Source: Phycisphaeraceae bacterium (GTDB taxonomy: Bacteria; Planctomycetota; Phycisphaerae; Phycisphaerales; UBA1924). Taken from it: DNA of 44,160 nucleotides. Both the position numbers and the translations under genes were made by a program. The notes beneath the pieces were generated by a model that did not search any database, was not told the origin of the DNA, and worked only from the letters and a program-made list of their open reading frames with translations. This document shows positions 6,913-42,785 of this stretch, in pieces; positions within the stretch are counted from its first letter, which is position 1, and each line of letters starts with the position of its first letter. The DNA lies in assembly GCA_021299385.1 (NCBI GenBank), contig JAJTGZ010000015.1, positions 1 through 44,160 of the forward strand, written 5' to 3'.

Positions 6913-7574
6913 CCAAAGAGTTTGCTCTTACCAAACTCGAAGAAATCGCCCGCAAGGCCGGCGGTGGAGACATCACCCTCGACCACGCCGGCGAAAGCAG
7001 GCAGATCCGCAAGGAAGGCTCGGCCATGGCCTCCTCGCTCGGGCTGGCCATCGCGCTGATCTACCTCGTCCTGGCCGCACAGTTCCGCAGCTTCCGCGAC
7101 CCGCTCATCGTCCTGCTCGGCAGCGTCCCGCTTGCGATCTCCGGCGCGCTCGTCTTTAGCTTCCTCGACTTCACCACCATCAACATCTATTCCCAGGTCG
7201 GCCTTGTTACCCTCGTGGGCCTCATCGCCAAAAACGGCATCCTTATCGTCGAGTTCGCCAACGTGTTGCAAGAACGCGGCCTGGACAAACTCACAGCCAT
7301 CCGCCAGGCCAGCGCCACGCGCCTGCGCCCGGTGCTGATGACCAGTTTCGCCACCGTCTTCGGGCACCTCCCGCTGGTCTTTGTAACCGGCCCCGGTGCC
7401 GCGGCAAGAAACTCCATCGGCACCGTCCTCGTCGCCGGTATGACCATCGGCACCATCTTCACGCTCTTTGTCATCCCCGTCATGTACCTGCTGATTGCCG
7501 CCAAGCACAAGCACACGCCTGAGCAAGCCGAAGAAACCACCGGCGCCACAGGCCCGACCCCACTGCCCGCATAA
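6900..7574 (+). CDS. RND efflux pump, 3' part of the same broken gene
   Basis: Carries the C-terminal half of the pump in a different frame from the 5' part. Homology actually starts near base 6758, upstream of any start codon. The coordinates given begin at the first possible start (GTG at 6900), which gives 224 residues. The product covers the end of the porter domain (GVTKEFALTKLEEIARKAGG) and the last membrane helices. These include LIYLVLAAQFRSFRDPLIVL and the typical GLIAKNGILIVEFAN helix. A separately translated fragment could not form a pump, because the porter domain is split. The stop at 7574 is followed within 22 bases by a hairpin with a G-rich arm that could end the transcript. 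Confidence 0.8.
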   Translation: MPGVTKEFALTKLEEIARKAGGGDITLDHAGESRQIRKEGSAMASSLGLAIALIYLVLAAQFRSFRDPLIVLLGSVPLAISGALVFSFLDFTTINIYSQVGLVTLVGLIAKNGILIVEFANVLQERGLDKLTAIRQASATRLRPVLMTSFATVFGHLPLVFVTGPGAAARNSIGTVLVAGMTIGTIFTLFVIPVMYLLIAAKHKHTPEQAEETTGATGPTPLPA

Positions 7575-7595
7575 CCCACAGGCCCAAAGTAAAAA

Positions 7596-7634
7596 AACCC
7601 CTCCCCCGAGGGGAGGGGCAGGGGTGGGGTTGGC
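7596..7634 (+). terminator. Hairpin plus four G-runs 3' of the efflux operon
   Basis: CCCCTCCCC (7598-7606) can pair with GGGGAGGGG (7610-7618). The right arm continues into GGGGAGGGGCAGGGGTGGGG (7610-7629), a canonical four-tetrad G-quadruplex motif with loops of 1-2 bases. An A-tract (7591-7597) precedes it on this strand. This is the best-formed copy of an element found 3' of at least seven other genes. It may act as a terminator or 3'-end stabiliser; function is inferred. Confidence 0.55.
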
Positions 7635-7674
7635 TTGTCTTATCCCTCGCGCACGCACGCGTGCATCAGCCGCA

Positions 7675-7998
7675 TCAATCCGCAATCTTCGGCACGCTCT
7701 GCTGCGCAGGCGCCTGGTTGCCCAGCGGGATCTCCCCGTTGTGCTGCTCGAACTGGCGGATCACCTGCCCGAGGCTGATCGCCAGACGCTTGGCGCCGCG
7801 CCAGTTGAGCACCACGCGCGAGCCGATATCAAACAGGATCGCCGGCTGGCCGTCCTGGCCGGGCATCGGCATGTTCATGCCAAAGTCCAGCACCACCTCG
7901 TCGGGGGTGGTCGTCGTCCGGATGGTGTTGGCGTAGGTCGTCTTCATCCGGTGCTCCTCGATGCGGAGCTGGATCTGCTGCTGCTGTTGCTCGGACAT
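7675..7998 (-). CDS. DUF3467 domain protein
   Basis: Small soluble protein of 107 residues starting at the ATG at 7998 (MSEQQQQQIQLRIEE). The pattern TTPDEVVLDFGMNMP, then RVVLNWRGAKRLAISLGQVIRQFEQHNGEI, matches the DUF3467 family. These proteins are short, have unknown function, and share a VxDF motif and a late helix ending in a YE/FE-x-x-x-G motif. A poly-Gln run sits near the N-terminus. It stands alone, convergent with the efflux operon. An upstream in-frame start at 8046 would add 16 residues with no family similarity. Confidence 0.8.
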   Translation of the reverse strand: MSEQQQQQIQLRIEEHRMKTTYANTIRTTTTPDEVVLDFGMNMPMPGQDGQPAILFDIGSRVVLNWRGAKRLAISLGQVIRQFEQHNGEIPLGNQAPAQQSVPKIAD

Positions 7999-8691: not shown

Positions 8692-9597
8692 CTATTCCTC
8701 CCCCGCGATCCCCACCGCACGCTCAGCCGACCGCACCACGTTCAGCAGCAGCATCGTTACCGTCATCGGCCCCACCCCCCCGGGCACCGGGCTGATCCAA
8801 CCCCCAGGCCCCAACTTCTCCCGCACCTCCGCAAACGCCACATCCCCGACCGTCTTGCTCTTGCCCATCTCCCCGGCCACGCGATTGACACCCACGTCTA
8901 CCACGATCACCCCAGGCCGGACCATCTCCGCCGTAACCAACCCCGGCACACCCGCCGCCGAGACGATCACGTCCGCCTCCCGCGCCAGCCCCGCCACCGT
9001 CTCTGCCCCGGTGAACTTGTTGCAACTGATCACCGTCGCCTCCGTCCGCATCAGCAGCACGGCGATTGGCTTGCCCACAACATCACTCGCCCCGATCACC
9101 AGGCACCTCTTGCCGCGGAGTTGCACGCCCGTGCTCTCGAGCATTTTGACGACCGCCAGTGCCGTGCATGGGGCCAGGCTGCTGCGCCCATAGACGACGT
9201 TGCCGATGTTCGCCGGGTTGACACCCTCGACGTCCTTCTCCGGCGCGATCAGCCGCTGCACCGAGTACGGGTCGATCCCCTCTGGCAACGGCATGTGCAG
9301 CATCACCGCGTGTACGTGCTCTTGCGTGTTCAGCAGCAGCACGCGCCCGGCGATGTCGTCGTACGTCGCATCCTCCGCCTCTGTCCCCAGCTCGTGCAGT
9401 TTGTACCCGATCCCCACCGCGTTGCAAGTTTTGCCCTGGTTCTCGGCATAGACGCGCGCGCCGTTGTCCGCCGTGCCCACAAGCACGGCGTCCAAACGCA
9501 CCTGCCCCCCCCGCGCCTGCACCCCCTTGACGCGCTGCGCAAGCACCACCCTGTACTGTTCGGCCAAGGCCTTGCCATCAATGATGCGTGCGGGCAT
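8692..9597 (-). CDS. folD: FolD-like methylenetetrahydrofolate dehydrogenase, altered active site
   Basis: Homologue of the cytosolic enzyme that interconverts 5,10-methylene-, 5,10-methenyl- and 10-formyl-tetrahydrofolate. The 301-residue product starts MPARIIDGKALA, like typical FolD. It keeps the dinucleotide-binding motif VIGASDVVGKP and the C-terminal signature PVPGGVGPMT. Three residues that support catalysis in the bifunctional enzyme are changed: the cyclohydrolase Lys (E. coli K54) is Gln54 in YAENQGKTC, the Gln of VQLPLP is His101 in LHMPLP, and the second Asp of KDVDG is Glu124. PCTPxG is also PCTALA. The Lys is known to be needed for cyclohydrolase activity, and monofunctional dehydrogenases lack it. 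I therefore infer a dehydrogenase-only enzyme or a changed substrate. It stands alone; ATG at 9597 chosen by family N-terminus. Confidence 0.85.
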   Translation of the reverse strand: MPARIIDGKALAEQYRVVLAQRVKGVQARGGQVRLDAVLVGTADNGARVYAENQGKTCNAVGIGYKLHELGTEAEDATYDDIAGRVLLLNTQEHVHAVMLHMPLPEGIDPYSVQRLIAPEKDVEGVNPANIGNVVYGRSSLAPCTALAVVKMLESTGVQLRGKRCLVIGASDVVGKPIAVLLMRTEATVISCNKFTGAETVAGLAREADVIVSAAGVPGLVTAEMVRPGVIVVDVGVNRVAGEMGKSKTVGDVAFAEVREKLGPGGWISPVPGGVGPMTVTMLLLNVVRSAERAVGIAGEE

Positions 9598-9913
9598 GCC
9601 CCACACTATACCTCCCACATCACGCAAACCCTTCCCCTCGAACGACCTGGCGGGGAGGAGCAGGGGTGGGGTCGGCTCACACGAACGCCTGAAAAAAGAG
9701 GTTCGCCGAGGGGGTGGAGCTGAGCGGAGGAACGCCAAGAACGTGCAAGTTGTGGCTGACAACCCCCTCAACCCCGCACTTCAACCCCGTGGCCCCGCTG
9801 GGGCCGAAGGCATCGTCGAATCCAACCCGGATGTACAACCCTGAAAACCTCCGCACCTGCGTCCTCTGAGTGATTCCGCCTGTGGGCCCACAGGGCCTCG
9901 GGAGTAAAAACGA
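9598..9913. repeat. Intergenic space filled by an inverted copy of a dispersed repeat
   Basis: No gene is seen. Bases about 9636-9850 resemble, in reverse orientation, the dispersed repeat found at 18973, 24600 and 41362. They include the GGCCCCGCTGGGGCCGAAGGC palindrome-like module (about 9790-9810), the GAGGTTCGCCGAG module (about 9699-9711) and a G-rich stretch GGGGAGGAGCAGGGGTGGGG (9652-9671). Confidence 0.65.
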
Positions 9914-17330: not shown

Positions 17331-17461
17331 CACCCCGGATCTCCCAGCCGGGCGTCGGGGTACCCCGGATCTCCGAGCCGGGCGTTTCAGTCTTCGCGGC
17401 TCATTACCCCTACTAACCCCACCCCTGCCCCTCCCCGCTACAACGCTCTACGGAAGGGGTT
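17331..17461. repeat. Tandem CCCGGATCTCC(C/G)AGCCGGGCG repeats and G-rich element
   Basis: Two copies of a CCCGGATCTCCxAGCCGGGCGT module lie at about 17336-17357 and 17363-17385. These are followed by a minus-sense G-rich element at 17404-17461 whose arms AACCCCTTCC... and GGGGAGGGG directly abut the stop of the AI-2E transporter. On the minus strand its core reads GGGGAGGGGCAGGGGTGGGG. Confidence 0.7.
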
Positions 17462-18802
17462 TTAGCGCGACACGGGCAGTGGGTCATTGGCCTGGCCGGC
17501 TGCCCAGGCCGCGACGCGGGGGAGGACGATCTCTTTGAGGACAATCTTAATGCACGCGGCAACGGGGATAGCGATCAGCAGGCCGTAGAAGCCCATCAGG
17601 ATGCCCCCCGCCAGCGAGGCGAAGAGGATTGTTGGTGTGTTCATCCCTGTGCGGTCGCCCTGAATCTTGGGTGTGAGGATGTAGTCGTCGAGCACCTGTG
17701 CGATGCCGTGGATGAGCATGGGTGCGGCAATCGCCCACCAGAGTTCCGAGCGGAAGCCGTCGTCGGGTGGTGAGGCGAGCAGCAGGACGGTGGCCAGTGG
17801 GATGCCGATGCCCGCGGCGTATGGAAGCGTGGCCAACACGCCGATGATCGGGCCGATGATCAGCGGGGCGGGCAGCCCGATGAGCCAGTACCCGACGCTG
17901 TAGTAGACCATGAGGATCGCGCAGATGGTCAGCCGGCCGCGGATAAAGCCCGCGATCACGGCGTCCATCTTTGACACCAGCCCGATCACGGTCCCCCGGC
18001 GTCGCTCGGGGATAAGCGTCTGCATGAAGCCAAGCATGTGCCCCCATCGAGAGCAGATGAAAAAGAAGAAAAAGGCGGTGAGGAACACGCCCAGCGCGGC
18101 TGCGCCGACGGAGCCGGCAATGCGTGTGACGATGCCGAAGATGCCCGCGCCGGTCGCCAGCGCGGTCCCGCCGAGGTCCTGGGCGTTGGTTCGTATCCAG
18201 TTGATGGCGCGGAGGCCGGCGTCGTAGAGAACCGCGGAAAGACGGTCCGGTGGCGGCAGGTTCGGGTCTGGCTCCTGGCCGTTGGCCTGCGCCATGACGC
18301 GGATGTGCTCGGCCCGAAGGCTGATGAGCTTGCTGTTGATCTTGGCCCACAGAGGCCCTTGGGAGTCGATGCGTTCTTTAAGCTCGGGGTCGTCGGGGTT
18401 GTTGATGCTCGATGCGAGCAGGCTGACCTTGGTGCTCAGCGTCTGGGAAAAAGACGTGAGCTGGATGCCGCCAACGACGGCCCCGAAGCCCGCGGGTATC
18501 AGGATCACCAGCAGCGCGCCCAGGATGATCGACCCCGCAGCCATCGGGCGGGTGAAAGCCTTCCGGCGTGTGAGGAGTTGGACGAGCGGCTCAAAGAGAT
18601 AGGCGAAGAGGATTGCCAGCAGCAGCGGGACGGTTACCAGGCTGAGCCGGTACCCCAGTGAGATGATCGCAAAGATGGCCGCGAGCAGCAGAAGGTCGCG
18701 GATGGGCTGGATTTGCCACAGGTGCAGTGTGGCCCAGGTGGGGCGGTGCTTGGGTTGGGGGTCGGGGGTGTTGGGGCCGACCGGTGCGGGCGGGGTAGAC
18801 AT
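17462..18802 (-). CDS. AI-2E family (UPF0118/PerM) transporter
   Basis: Multi-pass inner-membrane protein of 446 residues. About eight hydrophobic segments include the N-terminal pair (DLLLLAAIFAIISLGY, VTVPLLLAILFAYLFEPLV) and the characteristic late helices GYWLIGLPAPLIIGPIIGVLATLPYAAGIGIPLATVL. The family motif region LDDYILTPKIQGDRTGMNTPTILFA is conserved. Family members export autoinducer-2 or other small solutes, but the substrate of this one cannot be told. The central periplasmic-facing segment (about 130-215) is charged and fits the family's usual loop. No Shine-Dalgarno sequence is evident before the ATG at 18802. Confidence 0.9.
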   Translation of the reverse strand: MSTPPAPVGPNTPDPQPKHRPTWATLHLWQIQPIRDLLLLAAIFAIISLGYRLSLVTVPLLLAILFAYLFEPLVQLLTRRKAFTRPMAAGSIILGALLVILIPAGFGAVVGGIQLTSFSQTLSTKVSLLASSINNPDDPELKERIDSQGPLWAKINSKLISLRAEHIRVMAQANGQEPDPNLPPPDRLSAVLYDAGLRAINWIRTNAQDLGGTALATGAGIFGIVTRIAGSVGAAALGVFLTAFFFFFICSRWGHMLGFMQTLIPERRRGTVIGLVSKMDAVIAGFIRGRLTICAILMVYYSVGYWLIGLPAPLIIGPIIGVLATLPYAAGIGIPLATVLLLASPPDDGFRSELWWAIAAPMLIHGIAQVLDDYILTPKIQGDRTGMNTPTILFASLAGGILMGFYGLLIAIPVAACIKIVLKEIVLPRVAAWAAGQANDPLPVSR

Positions 18803-18849
18803 GGCCGGTGTATCGACTGTGCCGGGGGCGGGGGGTCAGTTTCGGGGTA

Positions 18850-18870
18850 GGTCGGCTCTCCGAGCCGACC
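18850..18870. repeat. 21-bp dispersed palindrome, copy 2
   Basis: GGTCGGCTCTCCGAGCCGACC, the complementary orientation of copy 1. Confidence 0.85.
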
Positions 18871-18935
18871 ATGTTGGGTTTGCAGTGCTCTGTGTTCCTT
18901 GGGATGTAAACTGCGAACAACCCAAACCGGAGCCG

Positions 18936-18956
18936 GATCGGCTCGGAGAGCCGATC
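18936..18956. repeat. 21-bp dispersed palindrome, copy 3
   Basis: GATCGGCTCGGAGAGCCGATC, followed by CTACCC like copies 1 and 6. Confidence 0.85.
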
Positions 18957-18972
18957 TACCCACCGGCAGGAC

Positions 18973-19265
18973 CCAGAGGGGAATCACTCAGAGGACTGAG
19001 GGGCAGAGGTTTTCAGAGTGCTTCATTTGGACTTGGGTTTGGGGGGTCGGCGTTGTGGAAGGACTTCGGCCCCAGCGGGGCCGCGGGGTGTAGCCACGGA
19101 TGGAGCCCGCGCTTTGGCGAGCGCAACCCGTGGAAGCGCCACACCTGGTATCTACTCCGCGTTCCTCCACCAACCTTCGCGCCCTCCGCGAACCTCTTCT
19201 TGAAGGGGTTGGTGTGAGCCTGCCCCACCCCTGCTCCACCCTTGCTCCTCCCCGCCAGAACGTTC
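18973..19265. repeat. Dispersed multi-module repeat, copy A
   Basis: No gene is seen in 18803-19277. The block holds, in order, CAGAGGGGAATCACTCAGAGGACT (split here as a module, not one motif), the module CTTCGGCCCCAGCGGGGCCG (about 19067-19086), an arm GTGTAGCCACGGATGGAGCC (about 19090) that runs on through GCGCTTTGGCGAGCGCAACC, a CTCCGCGAACCTCTTCTTGAA module, and a minus-sense G-rich element (19221-19258) 20 bp from the glycosyltransferase stop. The same module order occurs at 41362-41857 and partly at 24600-24880. Confidence 0.75.
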
Positions 19266-19277
19266 TTAGGGAGTGGT

Positions 19278-21119
19278 TCAGTATTCAGAATCGAGGGGTC
19301 TGTTCACGGCGTCTTGAATAGCCGGCAAAAAGTCGGTTTGCACAACGTGGTCCCAGCTCATGCGTTGGGCGAGTTGCTGGCCGAGGTCAAGGTTTCTTTG
19401 GCCATGCGCGTCGGTGGTGGGCAGCCGCTTGGCGAGCTCCTGCGCAAGCTCTCGGCAGACGTCGTCTTCGATCTTCAGGCGGGCCTGGGCCGTAAGGTTT
19501 TCGGGGTGGGGTGTGCCCGGGGGGATGCGGGTTACAAAGTCGGCTGGGAGCACCAGGTCGCAGGTCTGCATGCCAAGCTCGCCCATGGCGCGCTTGACCA
19601 GGCCCATGCACCCGCAGACGTTGCTCGTTACGCATATTGCCCCGGCGTGCAGCGGTTCGAGCTGGGCGATGCCAAAGGGTTCGTACGTGCTCATCCCCAG
19701 TTCAACGTCCGCGGCCCGGCGGAGGTCGGCGGTCGTAAGGCCCTCGGGGGCGGCCAGCCCGAGCCTCTCGCGCGAGAAGCCGAACTGGTTGACCAGCAAG
19801 GCCGTGATGGCCGGCTTGCCGGCAGCGGCTGCCTCCGTGGTTTGGTTGAAGGTCTTGAAGGTGGCCTCGATCTCAACTTCAGGCCCCACAAGATCGGGGT
19901 ACCCCCGGTGGTGCTGGCGTGGCCACCCGTAGCTGCTGGCCATGGCGTTGGCGTCGTCGAAGGAGCGTGTGGGCGCGCCGCAGGTGAGCAGAAGATAGAC
20001 CGCTCGCTGGTTGCGGGCGCGCAGCAGTGGTTCAAGGTGTGTGCACAGCGCCAGGTCGCGCCACAGGCCCTTGCTGGGCACGGGGCGAGTTACGTGGGTA
20101 ATAAGATAGTCCGGCGCGTAGCCCAGGACGTTGGTAAGCCAGGTGTTCACAAGCAAGCGTGAATCGGCACGCTGCTTTGCTGACACTGCGCGTGCCGGCA
20201 GGCCGTTGTACACCACACGCGTTCGGCTGGAGCGCATGTGCGGGCTTAGGAAGCGGAGCTCCTCGGCCGTCTCGGGGCCGACGGCCATGATCCCGTCGAG
20301 GACGTAGCTGCGCTCGACAAGGGCGTGCCGGCCAAAGTCGCTCTGGTCGCCGAAGACCTGCCCCACGCTCTGCCCCTTGGCCATCGCGGCGTTCATCGCC
20401 GGGTAGAACGCGGCGTCAAAGCCCGGCAGGTTCTCGGTGATCCGCCGGGCGGTCGAGCATTCGTGGGCGTGGAAGAGCGTTCGGAAGCGCGCGCGGTCCG
20501 ACCAGCAGCGCAGTGCCGTGGGAACGCCCATAAACTCATGGGCGACAACAACGGCGGGGAGCTCGGAGAGTTGGCCCACGGCTGTGGGTGCGCCAACCGG
20601 CGTGCGGAGTGTGAGCAGTGCGCAGAGGGCGTGATAGGCGGGCCCGGCCAGGCGTGTGTATTCCTCGTAATCCCAAGAGTGTTCGTAGCGGTGGCTCTCG
20701 ATGCTGTGCTGCTCGTGCAGGAACCATTTAGTCAGGTCCAGGCGCGCCCGGTCGGGGTTGTTGAGGTCCAACAGGATGACCTCGGCGTCGGCAGTGTTGG
20801 CCTCATCGCCGGGTGCGCTGAAGCGGCGCGTGCCGTAGACGATCTTGCTGCCAAAGGCCCACTCCACGGGCTTGAGCAACGCACCAAGAGCGTGCGGGTC
20901 GTGGGAGTCTGGGCCCGAGTAAAGGCACTGCAGGGCGTGCTCGCCGAGGCGGTGCTTGGGGTCGGGGACAGGTCGATCAGGATAAGGCAGTGGGCCGACA
21001 AGGATGGACCGGCCGACCTTGGCCCGATAAGGGGTGCTTGTCAGGAGGCCTTGCAGAACGGTGCCGATGCCGCCGAGGTGGTCGATGGACTCGTGGGTTA
21101 CGTGGATGAGTGTGAGCAT
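19278..21119 (-). CDS. Glycogen/starch-synthase-like glycosyltransferase
   Basis: Cytosolic 613-residue glycosyltransferase of GT-B type. The N-terminus reads MLTLIHVTHESIDHLGGIGTVL, whose GG-I-GTV loop binds nucleotide-sugar in this superfamily. A mid region, LFHAHECSTARRITENLPGF then VYNGLPA, resembles glycogen-synthase-like enzymes. The C-terminal half carries the nucleotide-binding motif DVELGMSTYEPFGIAQLEPLHAG, where the Glu-Pro-Phe-Gly sequence is typical of GT4/GT5 enzymes. It lies just downstream of gpsA on the same strand, with a 110-bp gap. The acceptor is unknown; a glycogen-like polymer is inferred only. ATG 21119 is used; a GTG at 21161 would add 14 basic, repeat-like residues. 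Confidence 0.75.
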   Translation of the reverse strand: MLTLIHVTHESIDHLGGIGTVLQGLLTSTPYRAKVGRSILVGPLPYPDRPVPDPKHRLGEHALQCLYSGPDSHDPHALGALLKPVEWAFGSKIVYGTRRFSAPGDEANTADAEVILLDLNNPDRARLDLTKWFLHEQHSIESHRYEHSWDYEEYTRLAGPAYHALCALLTLRTPVGAPTAVGQLSELPAVVVAHEFMGVPTALRCWSDRARFRTLFHAHECSTARRITENLPGFDAAFYPAMNAAMAKGQSVGQVFGDQSDFGRHALVERSYVLDGIMAVGPETAEELRFLSPHMRSSRTRVVYNGLPARAVSAKQRADSRLLVNTWLTNVLGYAPDYLITHVTRPVPSKGLWRDLALCTHLEPLLRARNQRAVYLLLTCGAPTRSFDDANAMASSYGWPRQHHRGYPDLVGPEVEIEATFKTFNQTTEAAAAGKPAITALLVNQFGFSRERLGLAAPEGLTTADLRRAADVELGMSTYEPFGIAQLEPLHAGAICVTSNVCGCMGLVKRAMGELGMQTCDLVLPADFVTRIPPGTPHPENLTAQARLKIEDDVCRELAQELAKRLPTTDAHGQRNLDLGQQLAQRMSWDHVVQTDFLPAIQDAVNRPLDSEY

Positions 21120-24599: not shown

Positions 24600-24879
24600 A
24601 CCCCAGAGGCCCTCAGGACCCGGAGCACGAATTTGCTCAGAGAACGCAGGGGCAGTGGTGTTCTCAGTGGTTTTTTGAGTTGTCTGTGTGGATGACGTTG
24701 GCCCCAGCGGGGTTGAAGAGCGTGCAACCTGCAAACTCTTTGAGGTTGAACGCGCTGTGCGCCACACCTGGTTTTTTCTCCGCGTCCCTCCGCCAACCTT
24801 CGCTCACTCCGCGAACCTCTTTCTATTGTGTGCTTTGCGTGTGCCAACCCCACCCCTGCCCCTCACCTCGGGGGAGGGT
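24600..24879. repeat. Dispersed multi-module repeat, copy B
   Basis: No gene is seen between the ATPase and uppP. The block shows CCCAGAGGCCCTCAGG (about 24602), GTTGGCCCCAGCGGGGTTG (about 24698), GTGCAACCTGCAAACTCTTT (about 24721), CGCCAACCTTCGCTCACTCC (about 24791) and a minus-sense G-rich element at 24847-24880 that abuts the uppP stop. Order and sequence parallel copy C. Confidence 0.7.
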
Positions 24880-25752
24880 CTAAATGTTGACAAGGCCCGT
24901 GGCCACGAGCGTCAGCAGCAGGGCTGCAAAAGCGATCCGGTAGATGCCGAACGGGGTCAGCCCGTGGCGGTTGAGGAACCCAACGAGCCACCTGACGGCA
25001 ACGGCCGCGCTGATGGCGGCGACGGCCATCCCCACAAGGACGGGGGTCCAGCCCAGCTGCTCGAAGAGGTTGGGCTGGCCCGTCTTGGCGGCGCGGTTGA
25101 GGTTCTTGTAGAGCGCATACCCCGTGGCGGCCAGAAGTGTCGGCATGCCCAGCAGGAAACTGAACTCCGCGGCAGCCGCAGGACGCAGGCCGCAGAAGAT
25201 GCCCCCCGTGATCGTCATCATGCTCCGGCTAGTCCCGGGCCAAAGGCTGAAGCACTGCAGCAGGCCAATCGTCAACGCGTCCCGCGGGGTCATCTCCGTC
25301 ACTTCTTTGCCGTCGGCACCGGCCCCGGCGAATCGGCGGGGGCGGACGATTTTTAGGTCGACGATGATCATGTAGATCCCGCCGAGCACCATGGCTATGA
25401 CCACCGCCTGCCAGCCGAAGAGGTGCGTTTCGATCAAGTCGTGGATCAGCAGCCCAAGCACGGCGGCGGGGATGAAGGCGATGGCGATGTTGACCAACAG
25501 CATAAAGCCCGCCCCGTCCCTGCCCAGCAGGCCGCGGAGCATCTGCAGGAACCTTGGAAAGTAAAGACCAAGCACCGCCAGAATCGCGCCGCCCTGGATG
25601 ACGATCTCAAAGGCGTTGATCGCTTCCCTGGCCGAGGCGTCTTTGAGGCCCAGCAGCTGGCTGGTGATGATGAGGTGGCCCGTGCTGGAGACGGGAAGGT
25701 ACTCGGTGATCCCCTCAACAAGGCCCAGGATGATGGCTTGCCAGATGTTCAT
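24880..25752 (-). CDS. uppP: Undecaprenyl-diphosphate phosphatase
   Basis: Inner-membrane enzyme (BacA/UppP family) that dephosphorylates undecaprenyl diphosphate to recycle the lipid carrier of cell-wall synthesis. The 290-residue product shows the family signatures EGITEYLPVSSTGHLI near the N-terminus (acidic residue and SSTGH) and PGTSRSMMTITGG later. Seven to eight hydrophobic segments are present. The stop is immediately followed by a G-rich hairpin element. The start at ATG 25752 (MNIWQAIILGLVEG) fits the family; an in-frame start at 25788 adds 12 residues. It lies 112 bp downstream of the FabZ-like gene. Confidence 0.93.
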   Translation of the reverse strand: MNIWQAIILGLVEGITEYLPVSSTGHLIITSQLLGLKDASAREAINAFEIVIQGGAILAVLGLYFPRFLQMLRGLLGRDGAGFMLLVNIAIAFIPAAVLGLLIHDLIETHLFGWQAVVIAMVLGGIYMIIVDLKIVRPRRFAGAGADGKEVTEMTPRDALTIGLLQCFSLWPGTSRSMMTITGGIFCGLRPAAAAEFSFLLGMPTLLAATGYALYKNLNRAAKTGQPNLFEQLGWTPVLVGMAVAAISAAVAVRWLVGFLNRHGLTPFGIYRIAFAALLLTLVATGLVNI

Positions 25753-29587: not shown

Positions 29588-29672
29588 GGTGTTGGTCCTT
29601 GCGTGTGGCGTGGTGTTCTACGGGGAACGGTAGGGCTTCTGTGCAGCCCGGCTCTCCCAGCCGAGCTGGGTA

Positions 29673-29771
29673 GGTCGGCTCTCCGAGCCGACCGTGTTGG
29701 GATTGAAGATATCTTTATTTCAGGTTCCAAACAGTGGCCACCCCCACCCCTCCCCTCGCCGGAGGGGTTCT
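29673..29771. repeat. 21-bp palindrome (copy 4) and minus-sense G-rich element
   Basis: GGTCGGCTCTCCGAGCCGACC at 29673-29693, next to a less regular CGGCTCTCCCAGCCG stretch. At 29740-29771 a G-rich element lies 17 bp from the dinB-like stop; on the minus strand its core is GGGGAGGGGTGGGGGTGG. Confidence 0.75.
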
Positions 29772-29787
29772 GATAAAGAATGGCTTG

Positions 29788-30342
29788 CTAGGCGAGCCTT
29801 TGCACCTTGGCGTTGAGGTACCAGGCGTGGTGTTCGAGGTGGAAGGTAGCGTATTCAAGGATCACGCGTGTCGTCTGCTCGCCACGCTCGGGGTGCATCG
29901 CCTTGCGTTGCCACTGCGCATCGCTGAGCGTGCCGAGCCACTCGGTCATCCACCGGCGCTGGGAATGAATAACCGCGACAAACGCGGCGACGGGGTGTTT
30001 AACGCTCTCGTTGGGGCCAGGCTCGGCACAGCCGTAGAGGGCGTGGTCGATGAAGGCCTCCTCATCCCACGCGGCAAAGAGAGGGTTGTCCTCGCCGACG
30101 ACCCGCCGAAGGCGGTGCGTGAAGACAAGCTCGGCATCGCAGAGGTGGCCCAGCAGCACCCGGCACGGCCAGCGGCCGATGTTGGCCTCGGGGCGGAAGG
30201 CGGTGTCCAGGCTGGCGTCGCCGAGCTTGAGCACGCGCGCGTCAAAGGCCTCTACGCCCGGCGCGTAGCGGGCGATGAGTTGTGCGTGCGTGAGCGTGGC
30301 AAGCGCGTCGCGCGTCGGGCGTGGTGCGGCCGGGTCGATCAT
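29788..30342 (-). CDS. DinB-like putative metal-dependent hydrolase
   Basis: 184-residue soluble protein of the DinB/YfiT-like four-helix-bundle family. Metal-binding His residues fit LLGHLCDAELV (about 62-72) and the C-terminal YATFHLEHHAWYLNAK. DinB-like proteins include thiol- or stress-related transferases, so the substrate cannot be told. The start ATG (30340-30342) overlaps the upstream membrane-protein stop in ATGA, so translation is likely coupled. A G-rich 3' element follows its stop. Confidence 0.8.
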   Translation of the reverse strand: MIDPAAPRPTRDALATLTHAQLIARYAPGVEAFDARVLKLGDASLDTAFRPEANIGRWPCRVLLGHLCDAELVFTHRLRRVVGEDNPLFAAWDEEAFIDHALYGCAEPGPNESVKHPVAAFVAVIHSQRRWMTEWLGTLSDAQWQRKAMHPERGEQTTRVILEYATFHLEHHAWYLNAKVQRLA

Positions 30343-31034: not shown

Positions 31035-31407
31035 ACCGGGAGTGTAACACGGTCATTGCCGGTGAACCTCGCGGCCCAGTGCCATGAAACCTCACCCCTA
31101 CGCATCCCCGCTAGAACCTGCTCAGCGAGGGGTTTTGATGCAGTGGTTCTGATTCGGTGGCACGGGCTTCGAACCCGTGCAGGTGCGTTGCAACACAAAG
31201 CAAGTTGTACACCCAAGGCCCAGAAAGGCCCAGAGAACCCCGCAGGAAGACCCTTGGGCAAAGGACCGCCACCACCCCCGGCCGTCGCGCACACCATCCA
31301 CCTGCCTTGACCAAACTCCACCGCCGGGCCATCAGGGACCTCTGGGGCAAAAAATCGAGTTCGAAAACTCCGGAGCATGAGCTCCCAAAGCTGAACCCCC
31401 ATCCAAA
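31035..31407. repeat. Intergenic region with short repeat fragments
   Basis: No gene is seen. It holds a G-poor relative of the 3' element (CCTCACCCCTACGCATCCCC near 31090), a hairpin GCACGGGCTTCGAACCCGTGC (31160-31180), and GGCCCAGAAAGGCCCAGAG near 31220, a relative of the dnaA-purM inverted repeat. The flanking tRNA is transcribed leftward into this region. Confidence 0.6.
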
Positions 31408-36120: not shown

Positions 36121-36138
36121 GCCGGGTAGGTCCGGGTA

Positions 36139-36317
36139 GGTCGGCTCTCCGAGCCGACCGTCTTGGGCGTGATATGGGGGCGTGATATGGGGGCGTGATA
36201 TGGGGGCGTGAAGTGCGCGGTGATTTCAGGGTGTAGACAGTGGCCAACCCCACCCCTGCACCTGCCCTCGGGGGAGGGGTTGAAGAAGAAGGAGAGGATC
36301 GGCTCGGAGAGCCGATC
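36139..36317. repeat. Palindromes (copies 5 and 6), 13-bp tandem repeat and G-rich element
   Basis: GGTCGGCTCTCCGAGCCGACC at 36139-36159 is followed by three perfect 13-bp copies of GATATGGGGGCGT (36171-36209). A minus-sense G-rich element (36243-36282) comes next, then GATCGGCTCGGAGAGCCGATC (36297-36317) 16 bp before the rplS stop. All lie in the 212-bp convergent gap between metK and rplS. Confidence 0.85.
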
Positions 36318-36332
36318 TACCCAGAATCGCTC

Positions 36333-36710
36333 TTAGGCCTTGGCGACGTGCTTCAAGCCGCGGCGGCGGTCGCGGATGCGGCGGCTCTTGCCCTTGCGCT
36401 CGCGGAGGTAGTAGAGCTTGGCACGGCGGCTGTCGCCCCGGCGGACGACCTCGACTTTTTCGACGCGGGGTGAGCAGACCGGGAAGGTGCGCTCGACGCC
36501 GACCTCGTCAACGAGCTTGCGGACGGTGATCATCTCGGTCACGCCGCGGCCGGCGTGGGAGATCAGCACGCCGGTGAAGACCTGCGTGCGCTCCTTGTCC
36601 CCCTCGACGATCTTGTTGTGCACGCTGATGGTGTCCCCGATGGAGAGCACCGGCAGGTCTGTGCGGAGGAGCTCGGCGTTGAGGCTCTCGATGATCTGTT
36701 GAATACCCAT
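36333..36710 (-). CDS. rplS: 50S ribosomal protein L19
   Basis: Ribosomal large-subunit protein at the 30S-50S interface. The 125-residue product starts MGIQQIIESLNAELL and carries DTISVHNKIVEGDKERTQVFTGVLI, then ERTFPVCSPRVEKVEVVRRGDSRRAKLYYLRERKGKSRRI, all matching L19. The ATG at 36710 is preceded by GGAAAGAG. Upstream in-frame sequence is repeat translation and is not part of the protein. The usual rpsP, rimM and trmD partners are absent. Confidence 0.95.
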   Translation of the reverse strand: MGIQQIIESLNAELLRTDLPVLSIGDTISVHNKIVEGDKERTQVFTGVLISHAGRGVTEMITVRKLVDEVGVERTFPVCSPRVEKVEVVRRGDSRRAKLYYLRERKGKSRRIRDRRRGLKHVAKA

Positions 36711-37940: not shown

Positions 37941-38011
37941 GGCAGGAACGATACCCCGGCAGGTGGGGGCGTGACCTCATACAGAGCACCACTGAACGTC
38001 GTGCGTTCGAA

Positions 38012-38053
38012 GTGGCCAACCCCACCGCTGCCTCCCCTCGGGGGAGGGGTTCA
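38012..38053 (-). terminator. Hairpin with G-rich arm 3' of the HDOD gene
   Basis: On the minus strand AACCCCTCCCCCGAGGGG (about 38053-38036) forms a strong stem and leads into a G-rich run (GGAGGCAGCGGTGGGGTTGG). It lies 27 bp after the HDOD gene stop. This copy has one weakened G-run. Confidence 0.55.
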
Positions 38054-38078
38054 GCATCAGAAACAACGGCGATCCGCA

Positions 38079-39584
38079 TCATGCGGCTTTGGGGACGAAG
38101 ACGCGGAGGAGGTTGTTGCCGGATCTTTGTGCAGATTGCAGCGCGCGGTGTGCGGTGTCCAGGACCGAGTCGATGGTGGTAAAGCGTGCGCGGGTGGCAT
38201 CGTCCAGTGAGAGGAGCCCGGCCGAGAGGGTGACGGGGATATCGATCCTGACAAGGCCCTTGGGTGTTATGTGCATGGGCTGGGCCGTGAGGTCGTCCTT
38301 GAAGGCCTCGATGAGTTTGGTTGCCGAGAAGCGGTCGGTGGCGGTCATGATGATGGCGAAGAGGCCGCGGTCGAGGTTGAAGCTGATGATGGCCTGGGTC
38401 TCGAACTTGCGGAGGCGTTCGCCGAGGCAGAGGAGCAGTTCGTTGGTATAGGCCTGCCCGTACTCTGTTTGTATGTTCTCGACCCCGTCGAGCGCGAGCA
38501 GCGCGAGGGAGAAAGGCCCGCCGCCGGCCTGGAGCTGCTCGACAACGGCGACGAGGTTCTGGCTCAGTGTGATGCGGTTGGGCAGGAGCGTGATGGGGTC
38601 GAGGTTGGCGGCGAGTGCGGCGTCTGGGTCGTTGGTCGGTGGTGTTGTGCGCGGCTGGCTCTGGATGGGGAGCGTTGCGCTGACGAGCTGCTCGTTGGCC
38701 TTGGCGCGGACGGTGGCCGGGTCGCCGTAGTCGGCAAGCTCGACTTCCAGGAAGCTGGCGACCTCGCGTGCACCTTTGGCGATGACTTCCATGAGTTCAT
38801 CGGTGCGCGGGGGTGTGATGCGGAACCACTCCTCGCACTTGGCGTAGTAGCGCTTGAGCGCGACGCCGGGCTCCGTGGCCGAGAGGACATCGGCGGCCAT
38901 GTTCCCAAGCCCGACGGCGTAGACGGCTTGGATGTGCGTCTGCGGGGCGGCCTGCGGGCGTTCGTGGTAGCGGATCGGCACGCTGAGCTCGGGGGGGAGT
39001 TTCCAGCGTGCGGCGAGCAATGCGCCGACGTCGGGGTGGGAGGCTTCGAGTTGTTCGAGCTCGGCCTTGACGAGCAGGCGGTGGTCGCCGTTGGTTGATT
39101 GGAGGATCGCGGCGTATTCCTTGCCGAGCGCCTGGTAGAGGGCGACCATGCCGACGTCTTGGAGGAGGCCGGCGAGGAAGACCTCTTCTTCATGGCCGAT
39201 CTTGGCCTCATCGGCGATGCACTTGGCGGCGACGCCGGTGAGGAGGCCGCGGCGCCAGTAGGAGGCGTAGTCAAAGCCTTGCTCGGCGTGCTTTTTGAGC
39301 GAGCCGACGAGTGAGAAGCCCAGGGCGAGTGTTTTGACGCTCGAGAAGCCGAGCATGACGATGGCCTGGCTGATGGTGCTGCAGGGCTTGCTGAGGCCGT
39401 AGAAGGGGGAGTTGACGGTCTTGAGGACCTTGCCGGAGAGGCCCTGATCTTTGCTGATGACGTCGGCGAGTTCAACGATGGTGGTTTTGTTGTTGGCGGT
39501 CAATTCGATGATGCGTAAGGCGACCGCCGGCAGGCTTGGCAGTCGGTCGCAACGGAGCACGCGATCGAGGATCTCGGGGTTCAT
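38079..39584 (-). CDS. HDOD domain protein with a degenerate GGDEF domain
   Basis: 501-residue cytosolic regulator. The N-terminal HDOD domain (about 1-200) shows LPSLPAVALRIIELTANN, VISKDQGLSGKVLKTVNSPFYGL and a final HPDVGALLAARWKLP. The C-terminal half (about 315-500) starts DPITLLPNRITL, as in GGDEF domains. The catalytic motif is replaced by FNLDRGLFAIIM, so no cyclase activity is expected. HDOD proteins act in signalling and often in motility or stress regulation. The ATG at 39584 was chosen. It stands between recO and the permease genes. Confidence 0.88.
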   Translation of the reverse strand: MNPEILDRVLRCDRLPSLPAVALRIIELTANNKTTIVELADVISKDQGLSGKVLKTVNSPFYGLSKPCSTISQAIVMLGFSSVKTLALGFSLVGSLKKHAEQGFDYASYWRRGLLTGVAAKCIADEAKIGHEEEVFLAGLLQDVGMVALYQALGKEYAAILQSTNGDHRLLVKAELEQLEASHPDVGALLAARWKLPPELSVPIRYHERPQAAPQTHIQAVYAVGLGNMAADVLSATEPGVALKRYYAKCEEWFRITPPRTDELMEVIAKGAREVASFLEVELADYGDPATVRAKANEQLVSATLPIQSQPRTTPPTNDPDAALAANLDPITLLPNRITLSQNLVAVVEQLQAGGGPFSLALLALDGVENIQTEYGQAYTNELLLCLGERLRKFETQAIISFNLDRGLFAIIMTATDRFSATKLIEAFKDDLTAQPMHITPKGLVRIDIPVTLSAGLLSLDDATRARFTTIDSVLDTAHRALQSAQRSGNNLLRVFVPKAA

Positions 39585-41361: not shown

Positions 41362-41855
41362 TTTACTCCAGAGGCCCAGCGGGCCCAGAGGGGGAATCAC
41401 TCAGAGGACGGAGGGGCAGAGGTTTTCAGAGTGGTTTTGGGTCGGCTTTGTTGGAGGCCTTCGGCCCCAGCGGGGCCGGGGGGTGTAGCCACGGGTGGAG
41501 CCCGCGCTTTGGCGGGCGCAACCCGTGGGAAGTTGATGCACCCGCGCCCCGCCCCGGCAGGGGCGGCGGAATCCCCCGCCCCTGCCGGGGCGGCCCACAT
41601 CCAGTGCCAGGCTTCCACGGGTTGCGCCCGCCAGAGCGCGGGCTTCACCCGTGGCTACACCCCGCAACCCCTTTGGGGTTGGAGAGGATGCAACCTGCAA
41701 AACCTTTGAGGTTGAAGGCGCTGTGAGTTAGACCTGGTATGTACTGCGCGTTCCTCCGCCAACCTATGGGACCTCGGCGAACCTCTTCTTCTTGAATTTC
41801 TGCCTCAGTCAACCCCACCCCTGCCCCTCCACGCGGGAACGTTCTGGGGGAGGGG
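41362..41855. repeat. Dispersed multi-module repeat, copy C, with nested palindrome
   Basis: No gene is seen. From left: TTTACTCCAGAGGCCCAGCG (41362, an arm like that of the dnaA-purM repeat), a GAATCACTCAGAGGACGGAG module (41394) and CTTCGGCCCCAGCGGGGCCG (41460). Next is a nested palindrome, with outer arms 41482-41528 and 41615-41661 (2 mismatches in 47) and a 17-bp perfect inner repeat at 41550-41566 and 41576-41592. A CGGCGAACCTCTTCTTCTTG module follows, then a minus-sense G-rich element that abuts the murQ stop (41812-41857). Confidence 0.85.
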
Positions 41856-42785
41856 TTATGAGGGATCGAGGATTTTTGCGAGGCTGGGGCCGAGGGTTTT
41901 GATGAGGTGCTCGGCTTGTTGGCGGGTTACTTGTTTGCGGTTCATAATGATGGCGGTCTTGGCGTTGCCGTCGGCTTGATCGAGGAGGTTGAGGGAGGCG
42001 TTGCGGTCAAGGCCTGTGAGCGTGGCGATAACGCGGGCGGCGCGGTCGCGGAGTTTGTCGTTGCTGGCTTTGACGTCGACCATGAGGTTTTGATAGACGC
42101 GGCCGGCACGGACCATGAGGGTGGTGCTGATGGCGTTGAGCGTGAGTTTGGTGGCCGTGCCGGCTTTCATGCGTGTGCTGCCGGTGAGGACTTCGGGGCC
42201 TGTTGGGAGTGTGATGAGGTGGTCGCAGGAGGGTGGGTTGGATACGCGGGCGCAGGTGAGCAGTGCGGTGGTGCAGTGTGGGGCGAGGCGCTTGGCGATG
42301 GCAAGGCCGCCGAGGGCGTAGGGTGTGGTGCCGCCGGCGGCGATGGCGAGGACGGCGTCGTGCTCGGTCAGGTGCAGGTGTGTGAGTTCCGGTTCGCACC
42401 CGGAGGGGTCGTCTTCTTTGCCTTCGCTGCTGGTGCGGAGTGCGCTGTCGCCCCCTGCGATGAGAGCGATGATCTTGCCGGGTGGCACGCAGAAAGTGGG
42501 CGGGGCCTCAGAGGCATCGAGGACGCCGAGGCGGCCGCTGGTGCCAGCGCCGATGTAGATCAGCCGGCCTTGGTGGTGGGGGGTGCAGAAGTGGGGTTCG
42601 ACGGCGCGGATGAAGGCTTCGATCTGGGGGTGTGCCGAGCGCACGGCGTTGAGGGCGGCAAAGTCCTCGGTGGCCAGGAGTGCAAGACAATCGGCGGGGT
42701 TGAGGGTGTGCAGGGTGTGGGAGCGGGGGTTGCGCTGTTCGGTGTCGATCTGGGCGCGGTTAGGGGGAGGGATGGATGGATTCAT
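41856..42785 (-). CDS. murQ: N-acetylmuramic acid 6-phosphate etherase
   Basis: Cytosolic SIS-domain etherase that removes the lactyl ether from MurNAc-6-phosphate in cell-wall recycling. The 309-residue product carries [22 protein letters not shown] (catalytic Glu in ASEA), [16 protein letters not shown] (second acidic region), [30 protein letters not shown] and [14 protein letters not shown], all MurQ signatures. The ATG at 42785 fits the family; upstream in-frame codons to 43331 are antisense to the prepilin-like gene. No MurNAc kinase or transporter is adjacent. Confidence 0.93.

Follow-up and report, generated by a model that had tools for sequence, protein, structure and literature searches.

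What is the G-rich element that recurs just past stop codons in this Phycisphaeraceae genome, and does it serve to end transcription? A first-pass annotation of the window (the whole 44,160-nt stretch of DNA analyzed here) had placed a G-quadruplex-capable element 0 to 51 bp after the stop codons of at least eight genes, always G-rich in the sense RNA, and had proposed a shared role in transcription ending or mRNA stability, with hairpin and quadruplex as competing structures. The sequences of the element are indeed present at all of the coordinates given, and all eight copies lie at about -2 to +51 nt from a stop codon with the G-rich strand sense. Our analysis revealed that these eight elements are copies of a single dispersed repeat.

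A dispersed repeat expanded in one genome

The short form of the repeat has a core of 36 bp, AACCCCTCCCC-CGA-GGGGAGGGG-CA-GGGGTGGGGTT; in the alternative 47-nt long form, a CAGAACGTTCTGGC-type sequence takes the place of the loop. Read G-rich, the intact short form is AACCCCTCCCCCGAGGGGAGGGGCAGGGGTGGGGTT, 36 bp with sharp borders (AACCCC...GGGGTT). The copies in the window are the following, with genes taken from our own predictions by a home-made codon-model finder.

7596..7631, + strand: perfect short-form core, 36 bp (pyrimidine arm 7598-7606, purine arm 7610-7618, third arm 7621-7629)
9627..9673, + strand: degenerate long form, not listed before; antisense to both neighbours and upstream of gene 8692-9597 (-)
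17415..17461, - strand: long-form core, 47 nt, directly past the stop of gene 17462-18802 (-)
19232..19278, - strand: degenerate long-form core at the 3' end of gene 19278-21119 (-); fails both structural rules described below
24846..24881, - strand: short-form core at the 3' end of bacA (24880-25752, -), where the first bases of the core complete the stop codon
29740..29771, - strand: degenerate core, ~17 nt past the stop of gene 29788-30342 (-)
31088..31134, - strand: strongly degenerate long form, not listed before; no stop codon beside it
36246..36281, - strand: short-form core with mismatches in a convergent gap, 51 nt past the stop of gene 36333-36710 (-)
37980..38078, - strand: extended unit adjoining the stop codon of an HDOD-GGDEF gene, 38079-39584 (-), and made up of a stop-proximal flank (38052-38078, 27 nt), the core (38018-38051) and a distal flank (37980-38017, 38 nt)
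38018..38051, - strand: core with a 2-nt deletion, within the full extended unit 37980-38078
41811..41857, - strand: long-form core, 47 nt, at the 3' end of an SIS-domain gene, 41856-42785 (-), whose TAA is made of T plus the AA of the core

The perfect copy lies in a convergent gap, 21 nt past the stop of the + strand gene ending at 7574. Stop distances of the copies noted at 19221 and 29740, which are too degenerate for the 19-mer list used below, were read individually against the gene calls. The claim of a uniform orientation stands for the eight copies first listed, but the two that had been missed (9627-9673, ~30 to 40 nt upstream of a start codon, and 31088-31134) depart from the pattern.

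How abundant is the repeat, and is it shared by related bacteria? As the family query we used a 19-mer of the core, AACCCCACCCCTGCCCCTC, with up to 2 mismatches, against the 2,626,756 bases of the genome (65% GC). It matched 253 places in this 2.63-Mb genome compared with 1 for the reversed control. Among 40 relatives, 28 had zero matches and none had more than 2. The full short form (≤3 mismatches) occurred 192 times in the genome versus 0 in three congeners, and the exact three arm sequences with loops left free occurred 126 times versus 0 in a phylum sample of 293 other genomes; this search, like the viral one below, queried only these three arm sequences and not triplex motifs generally. 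The core is exact in 54 of the 96 copies of 36 nt. The family is thus abundant in its own genome, while the relatives searched have no copies or a background number of them: a repeat of a known kind has undergone a real expansion specific to this genome. An Rfam scan of the window at gathering thresholds returned one tRNA only and no match on the repeat. Among the papers listed by literature searches, none dealt with the 36-bp family or with the stop-abutting extended unit, an absence that is not proof of novelty.

Could the elements instead be chance low-complexity G/C tracts of a 65% GC genome? The window holds 16 G-quadruplex (G4) motifs, only 2 of which lie on the repeat, and the 14 others, unrelated to it, are what such a reading would lean on. 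It is already refuted by the 253 matches against a single control match and by the sharp borders of the core, and we give it practically no probability.

Position and strand relative to genes

Is the tie to stop codons and strand a property of the genome at large? We examined a sample of 998,359 bases including the window, with 124 copies and 792 predicted genes (84% coding). Its first 357 kb are the window and contigs C1 to C15 in number order (parts of C1, C7 and C15); the later contigs, except C17 and C53, were already known to hold a copy, so that copy density is biased upward while position and strand are unselected. Detection by the 19-mer misses strongly degenerate copies and forces conservation of the end of the purine arm, the linker and the third arm.

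The copies were distributed among convergent gaps (70), co-directional gaps with the G-rich strand sense (23) or antisense (17), divergent gaps (3), gene interiors (4) and contig edges (7). After the in-gene and contig-edge copies were dropped, the 113 that were left for strand counts would be expected from intergenic bases to include 21.6 convergent and 28.2 divergent copies, compared with the 70 and 3 observed; inside genes, ~105 of the 124 were expected. Genes and divergent gaps are both depleted of the repeat.

In convergent gaps, 61 of 70 copies lay closer to the gene that has the G-rich strand as its sense strand (binomial P ~1e-10); the median distance to the sense gene was 28 nt, versus 116.5 nt to the other. 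Within 60 nt of a stop codon we counted 76 sense copies, versus 37 ± 4 under random placement in the same gaps; 59 copies were within that distance in the sense direction only and 10 in the antisense direction only. The co-directional gaps, with 23 sense versus 17 antisense copies, showed no significant preference (P = 0.43). On the scale of 1.0 Mb, then, the tie of position and strand to stop codons that the first-pass annotation had proposed is borne out by the convergent gaps and by the scarcity of copies in genes, but not by the co-directional gaps. The association is real, and it is a strong bias rather than an absolute rule.

The spacing is also uneven. A sense gene lies upstream of 95 copies, and by the gene calls its stop is 27 to 29 nt away in 22 of them. 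A count made without the gene finder likewise placed peaks of stop trinucleotides 27, 28 and 29 nt before the core (13, 10 and 11 of 121, over a background of 3.0), to which the conserved left end of the extended unit itself could partly contribute. The peak at 27 to 29 nt arises because many copies sit in a ~101-nt unit abutting the stop codon. A further excess of stops at -2/-1 was set aside as evidence, since any T, TA or TG ahead of AACCCC would by itself produce an excess of about that size.

An extended unit with drifted flanks and a uniform core

Related flanks, ACGGATCGCCGATGTTTCTCGTGCGG before the core and GGCCACTTCGAACGCACGACATTCAGTGGTGATCCATA after it, were found in 33 of the 121 copies with enough flanking sequence, so that a ~101-nt unit is recognizable around about a quarter of copies. 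In 12 of these 33, the left end of the unit coincides with the end of a predicted sense gene, 26 to 29 nt ahead of the core. In relatives, the flank gave 2 isolated matches among 30 genomes.

Do units exist without the core? A search of the genome with the right flank only, which is free of the detection bias of the 19-mer, returned 28 places: 25 with a core at ≤3 mismatches (14 of them exact), 2 with an indel in the core and 1 that had lost the pyrimidine arm. No empty unit was thus found by this search; all 28 carry the core or part of it. In these flank-found units the left flank is 33% and the remaining right flank 23% off consensus, compared with a mean core mismatch of 4% (over 27 of the 28, two ill-fitting copies included). 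Similarly, divergence of the flanks was 26% and 21% in 21 extended copies picked for flank similarity, compared with 2.5% for the 17 core bases that played no part in detection, measured in the 19 short-form copies among them. Core and flanks therefore have very different divergence.

The ends of the unit resemble each other in inverted orientation, and in good copies the outer ends can pair. Compensatory pairing of these outer inverted repeats was not detected (11.57 of 18 pairs within a copy's own ends versus 11.59 with swapped ends, P = 0.56). We rejected a conserved fold of the whole unit: there is no covariation, and the consensus fold keeps the core hairpin and a short stem only.

What do the same genes look like where the repeat is missing? 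Orthologues of the bacA, HDOD-GGDEF and SIS-domain genes in congeners (two for each gene) have no element and end ~2 to 5 residues later; the BacA protein of the window stops 2 residues short of its orthologues in two congeners. For bacA and the SIS-domain gene, the first bases of the core complete the stop codon. For these three genes, the sequences fit a history in which the unit inserted into the final codons and brought the stop with it. The orthologous ends, from which the element is absent, are too diverged to show a junction, and no empty insertion site was seen.

Predicted fold of the core

On the G-rich strand, the core consists of a pyrimidine arm CCCCTCCCC, a purine arm GGGGAGGGG and a reverse-Hoogsteen arm GGGGTGGGG, joined by the loops CGA and CA; read backwards, the third arm sets its G bases against G, and its T bases against A, of the purine arm. 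The ITxF rule for intrastrand triplexes, as given by Holder et al. (2015, PMC4666352), asks for this order of arms with stems of 6 to 15 nt, loops of 1 to 6 nt and no more than 1 bad triad. We applied a close variant (stem ≥7 nt, first loop ≤15 nt, second loop ≤5 nt), since the first loop of the long form exceeds the ITxF limit. By this sequence rule the core is a predicted class II purine-motif intrastrand triplex. The copy at 7596 has stems of 9 nt, loops of 3 and 2 nt and 0 bad triads, and the rule was passed by 104 of the 124 sampled copies and by 6 of the 8 copies first noted in the window, weakly by that at 36243. The G4 rule (four runs of ≥3 G with loops of 1 to 7 nt) was passed by 102 of the 124 copies, and in the window by only 2 of the 8 (7596 and 17404, the latter failing the triplex rule); 91 of the 124 passed both. 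Because these numbers are so alike, the genome alone does not choose between the folds. As first stated for the eight copies, the description as G-quadruplex-capable is not confirmed.

The first-pass annotation had also pictured hairpin and quadruplex as competing. The pattern CCCCTCCCC..GGGGAGGGG gave 154 strand-wise matches in the 1-Mb sample, which were halved to ~77 hairpins because the pattern is its own reverse complement; 76 of these have the third arm behind them. The hairpin hardly ever occurs without the third arm, so that the left arm belongs to the unit itself and does more than compete with it. Even so, the 102 copies above could also form a quadruplex. Quadruplex is probably not the best name for the structure; the arrangement of the arms points to a triplex. 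Holder et al. (PMC4666352) report that in vitro NMR of the E. coli motif gave a triplex and not a quadruplex (18 imino signals were taken to mean a triplex, where a quadruplex would have given 3 to 4), and that the duplex wins when the other strand is present. The paper also states that purine-motif triplexes cannot form in RNA, which would make a quadruplex the likelier non-hairpin fold in a transcript.

Does variation among copies point to selection on the fold? Over 90 copies, the loop has 3.3 mismatches per site compared with 2.7 for the pyrimidine arm. The loop is thus not clearly more variable, and there is no pointer to selection on structure. The uniformity of the core would instead suggest recent or renewed copying, or selection on the sequence.

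The core in other genomes and in viruses

Named genomes were scanned for an exact 22-mer, AACCCCACCCCTGCCCCTCCCC, that spans the purine and third arms and leaves the pyrimidine arm outside the query. It was found at a minimum of 55 sites on at least 54 stretches; carriers among the matches listed include Prevotella, Bacteroides, Muribaculaceae, Saprospiraceae, Runella, Hydrogenedentes, Anaerolineae, Melainabacteria and others. This half-core is present, next to other loops, in members of Bacteroidota, Hydrogenedentes, Chloroflexi and Melainabacteria. The pyrimidine arm (GGGGAGGGG on the C-rich strand, ≤2 mismatches) accompanies it at 53 of the 55 listed sites, compared with 899 of 20,000 random tails, and the loop before that arm differs between carrier genomes. 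In seven carriers the 19-mer (≤2 mismatches) was found 148, 90, 10, 113, 14, 21 and 42 times. In Prevotella metagenome-assembled genomes (L065, L082), loop and flanks look specific to each carrier (in RUI080, for instance, ...GTTACA precedes the core), as though every one had amplified a subfamily of its own.

Is the placement at gene ends shared by these genomes? By a crude ORF caller, the 55 listed sites were convergent (8), co-directional sense (8) or antisense (7), divergent (8), within ORFs (13) or at contig edges (11), and at the convergent ones the sense gene was the nearer in 3 of 8. With no 3' bias in other phyla, docking at stop codons looks like a property of the unit in its own genome, not of the motif, and the docking rule may be particular to this organism.

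The 22-mer also occurs in 3 viral contigs, and the exact three arms with free loops occur in at least 120 (IMG/VR; L205 to L284). Many of the viral copies read AAAAAG-CCCCTCCCC-TTCA-GGGGAGGGG-TT-GGGGTGGGG, so that on the other strand the hairpin is followed by a T-run. Filamentous phages as the vehicle were dropped from consideration because Zot was found in 0 of the 40 three-arm viral contigs tested and because the viral sites showed no strand preference (59 versus 49 over 80 loci).

Neighbouring repeat families and the transposase

The intergenic gaps of the window look like mosaics of several repeat families in recurring order. A second dispersed palindrome, GGGTAGGTCGGCTCTCCGAGCCGACC, has the form of a GTAG-tagged REP and often lies beside the triplex repeat; a fourth repeat lies beyond the triplex core in several gaps.

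345-387, 18845-18962, 29668-29695, 36134-36161 and 36281-36323: second palindrome, GGGTAGGTCGGCTCTCCGAGCCGACC
19044-19133 and 41439-41660 in the window, and 1109-2213 of transposase locus L060: third family, GTAGCCACGGGTG...CACCCGTGG palindromes
19136-19198, 24759-24821 and 41725-41787: fourth repeat, AGAGGTTCGCGGAGG...GGCGGAGG (CCTCCGCGAACCTCTT on the + strand)

Palindromes of the third family flank both sides of the only full-length Y1/IS200-type transposase (contig C62) in a RAYT-like arrangement.

Could a RAYT drive the triplex repeat? We rejected this candidate because the genome's only full Y1/IS200 transposase (L060) belongs with a different, GTAG-type palindrome: GTAGCCACGGGT palindromes lie on both of its sides. 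No core (≤3 mismatches of the 19-mer) was found at the three Y1 loci (the full L060 and the partial L061 and L062), and the nearest listed core on the contig of the transposase is ~1.9 kb off (C62:14090). A mobilizing enzyme for the repeat was thus not found among the Y1/IS200 loci of this genome.

The repeat and transcript ends

Does the repeat end transcription? Intrinsic termination calls for a hairpin followed by a T-run on the sense strand, and none of the 124 copies has five T within 12 nt past the core. We also scanned 100 nt past 533 gene ends with gaps of ≥40 nt. Canonical terminators (hairpin plus T-run) were found at 34 of them (6%). At convergent ends, they occurred at 1 of 61 with a sense copy versus 9 of 121 without a copy, and at co-directional ends, at 3 of 21 versus 18 of 288. 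In all, 409 of the 533 ends have no copy within 100 nt, so that the repeat is not a general 3'-end mark. The repeat is neither a canonical intrinsic terminator nor a general mark of gene ends, and the proposal of a shared role in transcription ending is not supported: T-runs are missing, terminators are about equally rare with and without a copy, and the 55 listed sites of other phyla show no bias.

The role proposed by the first-pass annotation could also be read as an RNA G-quadruplex/hairpin switch at mRNA 3' ends that ends transcription or protects the message. The strand preference in the 61 of 70 convergent gaps would suit it, as would the four runs of three or more G available in 102 of the 124 copies, the strong RNA hairpin predicted at 7590-7640 (-20 to -21.5 kcal/mol) and the exclusion of purine-motif triplexes from RNA reported in PMC4666352, which favors a quadruplex in the transcript. 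However, predicted RNA fold energies are no better than those of dinucleotide shuffles (z of -0.05 to -1.0), the G4 rule fails for six of the eight window copies, 17 copies are antisense in co-directional gaps, and both the missing sense T-runs and the lack of a 3' bias over the 55 listed sites of other genomes count against it; PIT elements of E. coli are also reported, in that paper, to lack terminator activity. We consider such a switch rather unlikely. Could the C-rich strand be the one that terminates? The copy at 7596 is preceded by seven A, which for the convergent - strand gene ending at 7675 amounts to a hairpin followed by T7, as in an ordinary intrinsic terminator. This copy is, however, the sole one among 124 with five A within 12 nt before its core, and of 42 gene ends whose sense strand reads the copy as C-rich, only 3 have a canonical terminator in the next 100 nt. 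Termination on the opposite strand is largely refuted, and we regard it as very improbable.

Discussion

Bacteria carry intrastrand triplex repeats as an abundant and highly conserved class of dispersed sequence. The repeat described here resembles the BoxC/PIT/TM(ECO) elements of Holder et al. (PMC4666352) in having its Y, R and reverse-Hoogsteen arms in order on one strand, with 9-nt arms and short loops, and in its many near-identical intergenic copies, the number of which is very uneven among close relatives. Compared by eye with the TMECO consensus given there, CCCTCNCCC N3-6 GGGNGAGGG N3 GGGNGAGGG, the arms CCCCTCCCC/GGGGAGGGG/GGGGTGGGG differ, and the second loop has 2 rather than 3 nt. 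The core here is, unlike those elements, embedded in an extended unit that ends at stop codons, and it shows a strong 3'-end and strand bias, whereas in E. coli such a bias is reported to be absent; the 2015 study also reports no mobility genes near triplex repeats.

Other known families share some of these features. GTAG/CGTC REPs, as described in PMC3733652, also have a palindromic core of 20 to 40 bp, lie in convergent and co-directional gaps beside 3' ends and have termini able to supply a stop codon; GTAG REP ends often provide a TAG. The repeat differs in its third, G-rich arm and in that no linked RAYT was found, and among the copies listed none has a GTAG/CGTC tag at the hairpin, the ends being AACCCC...GGGGTT. 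In placement, the core resembles the quadruplex-forming GGGNATC repeats of Xanthomonas and Nostoc, which PMC4692102 places on the coding strand and no more than 50 bp from stops; those are tandem heptamers without a hairpin arm. The ~101-nt unit is also MITE-like in its ends, alike in inverted orientation, its many copies and the lack of a gene inside, but its flanks are strongly drifted, and no target-site duplication, empty site or partner transposase came to light.

How could such a repeat come to lie so regularly at stop codons? Its 3' placement and orientation look more like the outcome of a mode of spread and survival than like a stop signal. We think it somewhat better than an even bet that the elements are a REP/MITE-like triplex repeat, non-autonomous and docking at stop codons, which has been amplified or homogenized and has no dedicated role as a terminator. 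The ~101-nt unit would spread by insertion, probably being recognized as a fold of single-stranded DNA, and copies landing in or just past the last codons of a gene would survive. Such a unit would bring its own stop, either a TAA, TAG or TGA at its left end or T plus AA at the core, and trim the protein by a few residues; a self-supplied stop with so small a truncation would fix both position and strand. The core would then be kept uniform by renewed copying, conversion or selection on its sequence, and if transcript ends were affected at all, it would be incidentally, through the strong hairpin.

The uniform core allows two further explanations. One is a site for a sequence-specific protein (a nucleoid or 3'-end factor, or an uptake-like signal), kept by selection or biased uptake. 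A core that stays nearly identical (54 of 96 exact) while its flanks drift is what such a site would give, but recent amplification or conversion yields the same picture; any role would moreover be new, the congeners having no element, and 121 of 214 convergent gene ends (gaps of ≥40 nt) do without a copy within 100 nt. We judge this quite unlikely. The other is that the triplex-folding core is itself mobile: an enzyme would recognize the three-arm fold of single-stranded DNA and re-copy the 36-bp core, with the unit supplying a new stop. Re-copied cores would replace older ones inside drifted host units, and docking would have a fixed polarity. This, too, is unlikely in our estimation. If true, the mobile core would be a fold-recognizing element unlike RAYT/REP systems, with separate genome-specific families in several phyla.

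Returning to the stop-docking repeat as a whole, the family offers a docking rule (stop codon, G-rich strand sense), a unit with recognizable ends and a uniform core against drifted flanks. These features, together with its scarcity in congeners, make mobility, conversion and selection separable by comparison of sister strains. More generally, G4 motifs at gene ends may be copies of one repeat, a question to ask before they are read as terminators.
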